A DNA stretch of 27,037 nucleotides from a virus: positions 1 to 27,037 of IMG/VR virus record IMGVR_UViG_3300010399_000074; one strand, written 5' to 3'. Numbering within the stretch: position 1 is the first letter of the stretch; each line of letters opens with the position of its first letter. Shown here one piece after another: positions 3,126-7,211 of this stretch. The notes under the pieces were generated by a model. The model worked only from the letters and a program-made list of their open reading frames with translations. It was not told where the DNA came from and made no database searches. The translations under genes and the position numbers were made by a program.

Positions 3126-3575
3126 TTAAATATCCTTCGTATAGCTGATTTCGGATTTGCAGTAACCCAGCTTCTCGTACAGCGCAGTAGCTTGGGGCGG
3201 ACTATTGGGCATGTGGACCATCTGGATTCGATCAGCCCCAGCAGCGCGCGCAGGCTCTTCCACAGCGCGCAGCAGGGACGCCGCCGTATGGGAGCCGCGC
3301 ACAGCCGGATCTACCCACCACACGACCTCCACAGCGAATTTAACGTTGGCATTGAACAGGAATGGGGCCACGAACAGGCCCACCATCCCTACCAACCCTT
3401 CCTCATCCTCAGCGACAAAGAAGATATGGTTCTTGATGAGGTTTTCAGTCAGGTCAGCAACCGTATCCTCATCCATATCGCACCAGTCGGCGTAATGGGT
3501 CGTCGGGTAGAACAGGGCTGACATACGGACAACTTCCGAGACGTCCGAAAGCTGACCCTGGCGAATGTTAATCAT
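3126..3575 (-). CDS. GNAT-family N-acetyltransferase
   Basis: The protein has 149 residues, the length of a single GNAT domain. The N-terminus INIRQGQLSDVSEVVRM is the usual beta1-alpha1. Strand 4 is AVEVVWWVDPAVRG, followed by a degenerate acetyl-CoA loop RGSHTAASLL (family pattern Q/R-x-x-G-x-G/A). The C-terminal ATALYEKLGYCKSE is the standard last helix and strand. The fold uses acetyl-CoA to acetylate an amine; the substrate cannot be told. Its ATG overlaps the oxygenase stop (ATGA) and its stop abuts the gp7-like start, so it is expressed as part of the virion operon. Similar enzymes occur in other phage structural operons. Confidence 0.88.
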   Translation of the reverse strand: MINIRQGQLSDVSEVVRMSALFYPTTHYADWCDMDEDTVADLTENLIKNHIFFVAEDEEGLVGMVGLFVAPFLFNANVKFAVEVVWWVDPAVRGSHTAASLLRAVEEPARAAGADRIQMVHMPNSPPQATALYEKLGYCKSEISYTKDI

Positions 3576-4117
3576 GCTTCCCTCGGGGTAAAGAATGCGA
3601 CAGCGATCAAGCGTCCAGACTCGAAATCAGTCCCGAACGCCTCAAACGGCCAGCGGCTATGGAACAGGGAGGAATCGTAGATCAGCAGGCGACCCAGCTT
3701 CATTTTAGCCAAGGCTACCTGCTCCCACTTATCGACCGAATTCCAGTCGCCTTCGATCTTGTGGAACAGATCCATATCGCCCGGCTCAATGCGGTCAGCC
3801 TGAGTTTCCTTGTGCTTCCAGAAGGCCGTTCCACCCTCTCCTTCACTTAGGTACAGGACCGCAGCATGGGTGCCCCAGCCCATATCCGAGTGGATGGCAG
3901 CGTTAGGCAGCTCGTCGTTGAAGTTGAGCCGGTAGCCCATCCCAAGCATGTTGACTGGACCCATCTTCGCCTCAATGGCCTCCTGAAGGCCGGGAACGTC
4001 AGCCAGACAGATGCGCTTATAGACCTCGCCGTCGAAGCCTTCCCAATCGATATAGTGCGCCTCTAGGCCCATCTGGCGGACCTGAGCGGCGTTGGGGAAG
4101 TCGTCTACGATAACCAT
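3572..4117 (-). CDS. 2OG-Fe(II) oxygenase-like protein (DUF6445-type)
   Basis: The protein has 181 residues with a double-stranded beta-helix pattern. The metal motif H-x-D is IHSDMG (His76, Asp78). The distal ligand is in LIYDSSLFHSRWP (His153). The presumed 2-oxoglutarate arginine is Arg169 in ESGRLIAVAFF. All expected ligands are present, so an active dioxygenase is plausible. Members of this group hydroxylate protein or small-molecule substrates; the target here is unknown. The gene overlaps its upstream neighbour (TGATG) and its downstream neighbour (ATGA), so it is firmly within the tail operon rather than a separate cargo unit. Confidence 0.88.
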   Translation of the reverse strand: MVIVDDFPNAAQVRQMGLEAHYIDWEGFDGEVYKRICLADVPGLQEAIEAKMGPVNMLGMGYRLNFNDELPNAAIHSDMGWGTHAAVLYLSEGEGGTAFWKHKETQADRIEPGDMDLFHKIEGDWNSVDKWEQVALAKMKLGRLLIYDSSLFHSRWPFEAFGTDFESGRLIAVAFFTPREA

Positions 4118-4356
4118 CAGTCGTCCGTCAGTTCAGGGGTGACTACCGCGCCTAGCAGATCGCGTATCCGAGGTGAGGATACTTTGATATCGAAGATCCA
4201 CGTGCGTCCTACCCCCATTCTATTGAGTTTTACGCGCTGTTGATACTCGCCGATCTTCCCGATAGACCGGCGCTTCCAGTTGGACCAGTTATGGCCCCCG
4301 TCCTTGCTGTATCTGACTTCCACATAGTGATCGGTATCAGCCATTAGGTGATTCAC
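4117..4356 (-). CDS. Detached C-terminal segment of the gp10-like tail hub protein
   Basis: The ORF has 79 residues from a GTG at 4356, or 75 from an ATG at 4344. The core HYVEVRYSKDGGHNWSNWK followed by GKIGEYQQRVKLNRMG is the pattern that normally forms the extreme C-terminus of P22 gp10-type packaged-DNA stabilisation proteins. Here it is a separate ORF in the same frame as the larger gp10-like gene. It is separated by the codons TAA CAA TGC GAC TGA, i.e. two in-frame stops. The GTG immediately follows the TGA, and no strong Shine-Dalgarno is visible, so expression probably depends on re-initiation. It could supply the missing domain in trans or be a decaying remnant. Confidence 0.8.
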   Translation of the reverse strand: MNHLMADTDHYVEVRYSKDGGHNWSNWKRRSIGKIGEYQQRVKLNRMGVGRTWIFDIKVSSPRIRDLLGAVVTPELTDD

Positions 4357-4368
4357 TCAGTCGCATTG

Positions 4369-6804
4369 TTAAGATTCATCCTGAGTCCACCTGACGCCGT
4401 TTACGGTGGATTCCGTTGTAAAAGGCTGGATTGCCTCTCTCACCAGTGATGCGCCAACTACACGATAAATTTGAACGCCATCGTGGGTAAGGCCCCCCCC
4501 GCTAGCGCCGACAGCAACATATGTGCCGTTGGAATTGATGCTAATGTCAACGCCGCCCCCTATAGGCTGGCTTGGCGCAAGCACACCATTAGATATAGAC
4601 GAACCACTAAACGCGTATATCCGAAGCTGACCGTTAGACCTTAGTGTGTAAATATAGTTTCCGTCTTTAGACCAAACAGCACCAGCGTTTACCAATCCAA
4701 GCCCATCCGGATTGATTGCAACAGTTGTAGCCGCAGAGCCATTGTCCAGCATAACTACAAGCTGATTTGACGAACCTGAAACAATGTAATTTCCGCGCCA
4801 CATCAAACTGATTGGAGTCGTCCCATTGGTGTACGACTGACCATATCGGGGCGTCCCGAGAATACCTAGGGTTACATTGAAGATCGCTACTGAGCCAGTA
4901 GCCCCGGCGTACTCCTTTGATGCGACGATCTTTGTTCCGTCCTCATTCCAGGCAATAGCAAAACCGCCTGCAAGCATGTTGGCTTGTGATCTGAACGTAA
5001 ACACCCCGGCAATAATTTCATAGACCATAACCCTGGGAGTTGCACCACCCTGAAGAAGGGCAAAGTACTTGCCGTCAGGACTGAATGCGGTTGAATTTAC
5101 AAGAGTCGTCGGTGGAGTGGACGGCGTTGGAAGTGCATCGTAGCCGGTAGCATCGGCCTTCTTCTTCCTAAGAGCGATGAAAGGCGATCCTACAATGCCT
5201 GCTGCAATGTATAGCGTATTGGGTGACACTGACAGGCTTCGAGAAACAGAACTCGAAATACCAATCGGGGTGCTTTCTTGAATATTTGAGGGCGCTCCAG
5301 TGAATAGGTAGAGCGTAGTAGCAAGCGCCATTAACGAAGACTGCACATTTATCTGCACAGCAATCTCGTCCCACATGCCACCCGCATCCGTGGCACGGAC
5401 GTACACAGCAAATGTGCCAGATTCCTCTGGTGTTCCTGAGATCACCCCGGCGCTATTCATGCTCAAGCCGAGAGGCAATGCGCCGTCCACGATTGCCGCA
5501 GTTACAGGCGGAGTGCCTCCCGTAATGGAGAAACTGAATGTGTAGGGGACACCACGAATAGCAACCGGGGGAGTTCCGGAAATAGTAGGCGACGGCGGCT
5601 GTCCAGGGAACGGTACAGGTACCGTCTCCGGACCTTGGCCAGTATCAAAGATCAGCTCTGCCTTATTGATTCCGATCAGGCTTTGATTGTTGGACATAAC
5701 GGGGCTGACGCGGCGAGATATGAATTCATCTACGCCTTCCAGTACGTATTCCCAATTCAACTCCCACAGACGGCCATTCTGAAAGTCACCGCCATACCAG
5801 TTGCGTCCCCACTTGACCGTATTCGCCAACCGCCAGCGGTCCAGCCCGTAGGACTCACGGCGGGTCCAAAGGCCGGAAACCACGTCATATCCCCAGGTCT
5901 GCCCGTCAGGGAAGGTGAGGTAATAGACCTTGAAGCCCTCGTCCTCCCAGGTAAAGGCAAATGCCTCCGCCCAATTTAGATTGGCAAATGCACGAGCCAT
6001 TGGCCCTGTAGACACAGGAATAGCCGAGTATCCATTCATTCGGTACACAACACCATCATCGCCCAGCCAGAACAGGGTGTTATCCAGCTTTGCGATAGTG
6101 TGCCGGGACGAACAGCCACGGGTAATCGTCTGCCTGCGGTTCTGGAAGGTGCCAGTGGTGCCGCCTGCGTTGTAGAAGAACTCAATAGTCCTTTCGCCGA
6201 AAACCACAACCTCAAACTGGCTCACGGCCAGCCCTACGATGCGATCAGGTGATGCCTCCGCTTCGTACCGGTCAAGGGTGTTGTAGTCGGTGGCGTCTGC
6301 CAAATTGGAGTGGAACCAAAACCTGCCAAGAGGCTCTACGCCCAACAGGTAGGAATCCAGATAGTCAGACGAGATGGAACCCGGATACCCCTCGTCGGTG
6401 ATCTTTGCAAAAGTGCCGGTGCTGGTTGTGAACACATACCCCCCGCCGCCTTGCCCATTCTCCACAAGGAGCTGGTTGCCGGTCTGGAACTGGTTGTGCG
6501 TCATCTGCACTCGACCCAGCCCAGGAATAACGCCAATCGGAATCCCTACGCCCGCTGAGTCTATGCGGTATAGGACGGTTCCGGAGACAACGAAACGCCC
6601 ACCCTCAAGGTCATGGATGCCACGGATAGGGCCTGCACCGACTTGGATATAGGGCTTCAGACCTGGGGGCGTCTTCAGGTATTTAGGCGTCAGCGTACCG
6701 GCTACTTCCGCCATGACGGGGAGCCAGTTCACCGTATCCTGCGCGCCCCACGGGAGCGTGTCATCCTTGTAGAACCCGCCGATCAGGTCAACAGCAGTTG
6801 CCAT
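4369..6804 (-). CDS. gp10-like tail hub protein with added Ig-like and beta-propeller domains
   Basis: The protein has 811 residues. Residues 1-390 look like P22 gp10 (packaged DNA stabilisation, tail hub), starting GGFYKDDTLPWGAQDTVNWL and including ERTIEFFYNAGG and RDG-like beta-rich repeats. The gp10 pattern stops at FDTGQGPE. It is followed by a proline linker and an Ig-like domain of the He_PIG/cadherin-like type (about 400-490, with GALPLGLSMNSAGVISGTP). Residues 495-811 hold WD40-like propeller repeats (STAFSPDGKYFALL, AIAWNEDGTKIVAS, AVWSKDGNYIYTL, VRWTQDES). The propeller DNA (about 4370-5330) looks lower in GC than its flanks. The start overlaps the gp4-like stop (TGATG). The extra domains suggest a surface-exposed binding role. 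Confidence 0.88.
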   Translation of the reverse strand: MATAVDLIGGFYKDDTLPWGAQDTVNWLPVMAEVAGTLTPKYLKTPPGLKPYIQVGAGPIRGIHDLEGGRFVVSGTVLYRIDSAGVGIPIGVIPGLGRVQMTHNQFQTGNQLLVENGQGGGGYVFTTSTGTFAKITDEGYPGSISSDYLDSYLLGVEPLGRFWFHSNLADATDYNTLDRYEAEASPDRIVGLAVSQFEVVVFGERTIEFFYNAGGTTGTFQNRRQTITRGCSSRHTIAKLDNTLFWLGDDGVVYRMNGYSAIPVSTGPMARAFANLNWAEAFAFTWEDEGFKVYYLTFPDGQTWGYDVVSGLWTRRESYGLDRWRLANTVKWGRNWYGGDFQNGRLWELNWEYVLEGVDEFISRRVSPVMSNNQSLIGINKAELIFDTGQGPETVPVPFPGQPPSPTISGTPPVAIRGVPYTFSFSITGGTPPVTAAIVDGALPLGLSMNSAGVISGTPEESGTFAVYVRATDAGGMWDEIAVQINVQSSLMALATTLYLFTGAPSNIQESTPIGISSSVSRSLSVSPNTLYIAAGIVGSPFIALRKKKADATGYDALPTPSTPPTTLVNSTAFSPDGKYFALLQGGATPRVMVYEIIAGVFTFRSQANMLAGGFAIAWNEDGTKIVASKEYAGATGSVAIFNVTLGILGTPRYGQSYTNGTTPISLMWRGNYIVSGSSNQLVVMLDNGSAATTVAINPDGLGLVNAGAVWSKDGNYIYTLRSNGQLRIYAFSGSSISNGVLAPSQPIGGGVDISINSNGTYVAVGASGGGLTHDGVQIYRVVGASLVREAIQPFTTESTVNGVRWTQDES

Positions 6805-7211
6805 CAGTAGCGCCTCGGCCCAAAGGTGTCAGTGTAGATATCCCACATTCCACCGCGCATACTCACGGACAGGGACAGGGGATTAGCGGCCAGGACGTCA
6901 CGCAGCAGAACCTTATAGCTCTGATTGGCTACCTGCTCCATCTTGCCATCGATAGCGATGCCGTATTCCAGACGCAATTCGGATGCAAGGTTATAGGTGA
7001 TCGCCCGGATGGACTCAAACGGCACGGTCATTTCCTGACTTACGTCCGTAAGCTCGCTCCAGCCCAGGGCAACCCCGTCAGCTTCCCAGCGCACCATCAA
7101 CTGATTCAGAGCCTCCAGCGCGGTTTCAGCGTCTTCCGCTTCCGGAGCCTCGTTGGCGTCTACCACCCTCAGCAGGCGGAGTGAGCGGGTAATTAGCTTG
7201 ATGGCCTGCAT
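6804..7211 (-). CDS. P22 gp4-like tail accessory/adaptor protein
   Basis: The protein has 135 residues, close to P22 gp4-family size. The pattern LITRSLRLLRVVDANEAPEA, then ALEALNQLMVRWEADG, then a C-terminal part with NLASELRLEYG, is characteristic of the family that binds below the portal and closes the head after packaging. A GGAG lies about 8 nt before the ATG. The neighbours fit: coat genes upstream and the gp10-like hub directly downstream with a TGATG overlap. No peptidoglycan hydrolase motif is evident. Confidence 0.88.
   Translation of the reverse strand: MQAIKLITRSLRLLRVVDANEAPEAEDAETALEALNQLMVRWEADGVALGWSELTDVSQEMTVPFESIRAITYNLASELRLEYGIAIDGKMEQVANQSYKVLLRDVLAANPLSLSVSMRGGMWDIYTDTFGPRRY

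Follow-up and report, generated by a model that had tools for sequence, protein, structure and literature searches.

One group of short-tailed phages of Stenotrophomonas and relatives encodes a head–tail ring protein, the tail hub of the P22 gp10 type, as two proteins that probably join. The genome described here is a 27,037-base virus record (IMGVR_UViG_3300010399_000074), the whole of which is referred to as the window and which is probably a fragment. It very probably contains a two-gene hub in which the platform domain, by predicted docking, is completed in trans by a small second polypeptide, here named T, and in which the loop where the domain is split acts as a port for cargo. The fold of the cargo is predicted, and its function and the assembly of the two chains in the virion are inferred. 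The gene anatomy, its conservation across the clade, the retention of T under selection, the swapping of cassettes and the fusion of T to tail proteins were all observed directly. Hubs are regarded as conserved tail components made of one chain; in these phages nature has repeatedly cut in two the domain by which the hub is anchored to the adaptor ring.

Gene anatomy of the hub locus

The minus strand of the window carries a P22-like module of terminase, portal, scaffold, coat, gp4-like adaptor and hub, followed by ejection-type genes. The hub lies directly after the gp4-type adaptor in this head module, with portal, scaffold and coat upstream. The adaptor (6804-7211, minus strand; Pfam P22_Tail-4, PF11650, E 6e-6; phrog_637 Ad3, E 1.3e-19) is the expected partner of the platform domain. 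The hub ORF (4369-6804, minus strand) encodes 811 residues, of which 4-394 match phrog_578 (‘head closure Hc3’, the P22 gp10 family) with E 2.5e-102 over profile positions 5-403 of 486. The Pfam family Phage_stabilise (PF11134) reaches 24.3 bits on the same protein, against a gathering cut-off of 25. Past residue ~391-394 the ORF leaves the gp10 family, and the remaining profile positions, 402-468, match the next ORF downstream, T (E 8.7e-10). The profile is complete across the two ORFs, but on two polypeptides.

The hub body (residues 1-395; 5620-6804, minus strand) comprises the N-terminal platform strands, a β-propeller and the first C-terminal platform strands (362-366 and 377-387), as judged from the phrog_578 match and the AF2 model. 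An insert of ~420 residues follows. Its first part, residues 412-486 (5347-5571, minus strand), is an Ig-like He_PIG domain (Pfam PF05345, E 2.9e-10, 40.9 bits against a cut-off of 24). Its second part, residues 490-811 (4372-5337, minus strand), is predicted to be a seven-bladed propeller of the WD40/YVTN/lactonase type. Matches to WD40-like sequence families are weak here and fall below the Pfam cut-off; the propeller is called from the predicted structure (model mbde2c0af1174), which gives Z 28-32 to solved seven-bladed propellers, with VIA Z 31.3 to 1l0q and 32.4 to 7bid.

The hub stop, TAA (4369-4371), and a 24-nt spacer (together 4345-4371, minus strand) precede T, where relatives have an overlap of stop and start at the homologous position. 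T itself (4117-4344, minus strand) has 75 residues (MADTDHY...) and is assigned from its profile match, alignment A1 and the strands of the AF2 model. Its start is better placed at the ATG at 4342-4344 than at the GTG at 4354-4356, which would give 79 residues, as indicated by relatives that begin MADTDH.

The first-pass annotation had read the large ORF as gp10 to about residue 390, followed by an Ig-like domain and a propeller up to the stop, and both the family match and the domain assignments bear this out. It had also placed a foreign module in the loop just before the last segment of gp10, with that segment left as a separate gene, as the profile matches to both ORFs now confirm. Its description of the gp10 end as a 79-residue ORF in the same frame is correct as to a separate downstream ORF and its frame, but not as to the start and the length.

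A nine-codon ORF (4337-4366, minus strand) begins with an ATG (4364-4366) just after the hub stop, and its TGA overlaps the start of T (ATGGCTGA); it could be a relay for re-initiation, or chance. T is followed by a DUF6445/2-oxoglutarate-oxygenase-like gene (3572-4117; phrog_1644, ‘minor coat protein’) and then by a GNAT acetyltransferase (3126-3575), the two forming unusual cargo between the hub and the ejection genes. A gene similar to the former also lies right after T in three relatives (L031, L040 and L057). The window was found to contain hub, insert and T once each, with neither repeats nor spare cassettes. No intact hub paralogue was found elsewhere in the window or in the records of two longer relatives, L002 and L007, each of which has one hub and one T.

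Distribution and retention of T among relatives

Relatives, with hubs 43-81% identical, were gathered by searching viral and genome contigs, and their loci were classified with a hub profile (A2) and a T profile (A1), giving 140 distinct loci. Where the nearest relatives have a named host, it is Stenotrophomonas or Pseudoxanthomonas. T is a separate gene in 70 of the 140 loci, either as its own ORF adjacent to the hub (59) or separated from the hub by whole genes (11). Hub and T form a single ORF in 63 loci, five are split at another site near residue ~55, and in the remaining two an insert of ~155 residues occupies the same site while hub and T are still one ORF. The linker at the split site is mostly 3-36 nt in unsplit hubs, as against 91-482 residues of cargo in adjacent splits; in Vibrio and Shewanella phages both phrog_578 matches lie within one gene, ~20 nt apart. 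Homologues that end near residue 390 beside an unrelated neighbour, which would have refuted the first-pass reading, did not appear: unsplit homologues carry T in frame.

Mapped on the hub tree, T switches between cis and separate seven times, and at least six of these changes are forced by well-supported branches; the direction of change was not inferred. L178, a one-chain locus that lies beside split relatives on this tree, is 90% identical in the hub and 80% identical in T to L040, which is split and has a 236-residue SPRY-domain gene between hub and T. As far as can be judged from sequence, the cis and trans states of T are interchangeable. The split is clade-wide and not a single event in the genome of the window, so that of the domain insertion first proposed for this one hub gene the position stands and the single event does not.

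The two loci with an in-ORF insert, L211 and L214 (5968-7827), represent a cis intermediate. The five loci split near residue ~55 (L036, L037, L038, L098 and L101) form one well-supported clade and are a second, independent split. Hub residues 1-50 and an insert (with a He_PIG match in L038) make up one ORF; the next ORF runs from hub residue 57 to the end, T included, and the two overlap at stop and start (e.g. L038, 4553-5989 and 5986-7221). A frameshift in the metagenome contig L030 (near 6795-6813) breaks the hub ORF around residue 270; the likely cause is an error in sequencing or assembly, or else decay of this copy.

T is present with 197 of 204 complete hubs (a redundant count), and the other seven contigs end less than 1 kb past the hub. 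T without a hub was never found, and a search for T on plasmids gave no match. The median dN/dS of T is 0.25, compared with 0.15 for the hub, indicating purifying selection. Distances between hubs and between T sequences correlate with r=0.77 (0 of 1000 permutations as high), which is in part due to shared ancestry. The conserved residues of T are D4, S12, DGG 14-16, W19, G28, G31, Y33 and G43.

Predicted fold, translation of T and exchange of the insert

The AF2 alignments were limited to N-only, T-only and unsplit rows, because in rows covering the full hub plus insert the insert was aligned wrongly, either with T or with the hub propeller. For the fold with T (alignment A8) the two stops of the window were read as glycine (TAA=G, TGA=G) solely to tether T, and this is not claimed as biological decoding. 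In the resulting model pLDDT is mostly >90 for the hub body, 86-92 for T and 86-90 for hub residues 359-391, where strands 362-366 and 377-387 are formed; the insert is disordered. The predicted propeller-plus-platform fold resembles that of solved gp10, and superimposes end to end on P22 gp10 (8eap_D) over 438 of 471 residues at 2.3 Å (Z 39.5). As the hub body supplies at most 390 of the 438 superposed residues and the insert is disordered, at least ~48 T residues are expected in the native frame. The model predicts that T sits where the C-terminus of P22 gp10 lies, a placement that follows partly from the unsplit homologues in the alignment.

Folding without T (alignment A7) lowers hub residues 359-391 to pLDDT 31-37 with loss of their strands. 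Residues 1-23 also lose confidence and strands (31-41 for both regions together), and only 361 residues superimpose on 8eap_D, at 3.2 Å (Z 33.5). The two runs used different alignments, and the drop at 359-391 is therefore suggestive only and not a clean control. Within that limit, the comparison with and without the small product that was put forward as a check in the first-pass annotation placed T natively and left hub residues 359-391 disordered in its absence.

It might be supposed that the hub and insert fold and work without T, the insert having replaced the terminal strands and T being a relic or having another job, since in nearly all split genomes hub and insert share a long, well-formed ORF, and T is short and in 11 loci lies at a distance. 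We consider this unlikely. T is kept in all complete loci with its conserved residues and a dN/dS of ~0.25, which argues against a relic, the predicted order of hub strands 362-387 is lost without it, and inserts of several unrelated kinds could not all provide the same strands.

The start of T lies -7 to +4 nt from the hub stop in 57 of the 59 adjacent splits (ATGA, TGATG and similar), and in 55 T is in a frame other than that of the hub (41 in one frame, 14 in the other). Such overlaps are the usual anatomy of translational coupling, and simple read-through is thereby excluded as the common mechanism. Separate translation of T, by coupling or by the re-initiation that had been suggested at first, is strongly indicated by these overlaps in relatives. 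The window shows the loosest coupling, with TAA, 24 nt, ATG and T in the hub frame, and its in-frame TAA CAA TGC GAC TGA spacing is peculiar to this genome. This shared frame, like the in-frame cis insert of L211 and L214 at the same site, could be taken to mean that T is joined to the hub after all by stop read-through or a programmed frameshift, the product being one chain that contains the insert in cis. Such joining is very unlikely, as two in-frame stops separate hub and T in the window and whole genes lie between them in 11 loci. Moreover, T occurs in either of the other two frames with its start overlapping the hub stop, and one recoding signal cannot serve both.

Pairs of closely related loci differ in the insert. 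L024 and L026 are 99% identical in the hub and 97% in T, but 28% in the insert; the corresponding values are 96%, 96% and 3% for L013 and L015, and 96%, 100% and 19% for L049 and L050. Going by these identities, the insert is swapped wholesale as a cassette between near-identical hubs. He_PIG is found in 39 of 72 inserts, and other inserts contain WD40- or BNR-type propellers, Laminin_G_3 or DUF7483.

T can also be joined to other proteins. In L027, L034 and L179 the hub ends near the split point, a separate gene is next, and T is found behind a proline linker at the C-terminal end of a different protein. The intervening gene encodes ~210 residues (7200-7838 in L027, 7200-7829 in L034 and in L179), and in L034 it is a GT2-type glycosyltransferase by Pfam. 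T ends a 595-residue GTA_TIM tail protein in L181 (7617-9404) that matches phrog_19101, of unknown function, over 1-595. A phrog_4950 tail-fibre protein ends in T in L180 and L198; in L031 a free T is immediately preceded by a separate phrog_4950 gene, and phrog_4950 was not found in the records of L002, L007, L178 and L181. This pattern of gene fusion suggests that T is a docking tag, the docking step itself being inferred. The fusions to tail-fibre and GTA_TIM domains could reflect a T that binds to the surface of the hub as a free-standing tail adaptor, such as a fibre dock, and does not complete the platform. That role is highly doubtful, as T aligns with the C-terminus of unsplit gp10 proteins and is placed by the model at gp10's own C-terminal position. 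An assembly or sequencing artefact, including an error that merged two frames, might be suspected in a 27-kb record that is probably a fragment, but is refuted by the same split in 70 distinct loci, among them the bacterial assemblies Pseudoxanthomonas sp. CF125 (L075) and P. koreensis (L076).

Proposed assembly and comparison with known systems

The reading that we prefer is a gp10-type hub (nozzle) made from two genes. The platform domain of homologues is a β-sandwich to which both ends of the chain contribute, and it binds the adaptor ring. In the split hub this domain would be cut in the loop between the N-side strands, which end at ~387, and the last strands. The first polypeptide would consist of the hub body and a swappable C-terminal cargo, in the window the Ig domain and the predicted propeller. 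The second, T, would be produced by translational coupling or re-initiation just downstream and would dock non-covalently on the first to complete the platform. The cargo would then project from a surface loop of the hub without threading back into the fold. That T docks, and how the insert folds, are model predictions. Assembly in trans in virions, envisaged from the outset, is inferred, with indirect support from the retention of T under purifying selection, the similarity of one- and two-chain forms, the intervening genes and the native placement of T in the model. Experimental evidence for both polypeptides in the virion is lacking, and the start of T 24 nt past the hub stop in the window, a looser coupling than in relatives, counts against the proposal.

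A role of the cargo as an accessory adhesion or decoration element is likewise inferred; the Ig-plus-propeller architecture, the swapping and the exposure on the tail fit it. Receptor binding by the insert is plausible from fold and variability only. Of the two longer relatives, L007 encodes downstream a product that matches families of tail fibres and tailspikes and carries a Peptidase_S74 chaperone domain, and downstream in L002 there is a gene for a tail-fibre assembly chaperone. Given these separate tail genes, the insert is probably not the sole adhesin and is more likely accessory.

There is perhaps an even chance that the split platform is a general plug-and-socket. T would then be a portable docking tag for interchangeable cargo through non-covalent completion of a fold. 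This cargo would be Ig or propeller modules where the hub carries it and tail-fibre, GTA_TIM or other domains where T does, with repeated gain, loss and exchange; the second independent split near residue 55 lies in the same platform domain. The cut as a port for swappable surface modules offers a testable route for the diversification of podovirus tails that leaves the spike genes untouched. It also explains phrog_19101 and some small ORFs after gp10, and hub and T offer a natural split-protein pair. Annotation of these hubs as single genes misses T, an essential-looking piece.

The hubs of P22 and Sf6 (gp10; 8eap, 8u10, 7sg7) and the needle-head/stabilization proteins of Pam1 and Pan3 (7eeq, 9vyg) have a fold in common with the window model over 427-438 residues, including the C-terminal part, and their genes likewise follow that of a gp4-type adaptor. 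Each consists of one chain of 442-472 residues and lacks an insert, whereas the window has two chains and a ~420-residue cargo. Hubs of the gp10/Hc3 family form a hexamer in the virion, where they close the head and bind the adaptor ring. Organisation as one polypeptide is typical of gp10/Hc3 but not defining; the window departs from it, as do the 70 of 140 relatives with a separate T. The T domain is shared with phrog_19101 (595 residues), where it is C-terminal; unlike the T of the window, the rest of that protein is a GTA_TIM tail-protein domain, making it the second polypeptide of a split hub with cargo on the N-terminus of T.

Hub-type tail proteins have been shown to bind a host receptor (PMC7241545), with no split or swappable insert described in the abstract of that paper. 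A two-chain hub was not found in the literature, a search of open-licence papers only and so weak evidence, and insertions in cis were found in SU10 and phi-crAss001. The SU10 nozzle protein gp17 has a platform that is a sandwich of N- and C-terminal parts of the chain, bound to the adaptor (PMC9509320). Like the window hub it contains inserted Ig-like domains, and it also has a fibre dock on the hub; unlike it, it is one chain, with the Ig-like domains between propeller blades 2 and 3 and not in the platform loop (PMC9509320). The muzzle protein gp44 of phi-crAss001 is similar in having Ig domains inserted in its hub propeller and, distally, a large variable domain, but is one chain of ~1,360 residues with inserts in or between blades 2 and 3 and no split (PMC10172136). 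Docking here is predicted, and virion assembly and cargo function are inferred; set against the Ig insertions already known in hubs in cis (PMC9509320, PMC10172136), what appears to be new is the proposed completion of an adaptor-binding domain in trans, with the cut loop as a cargo port.
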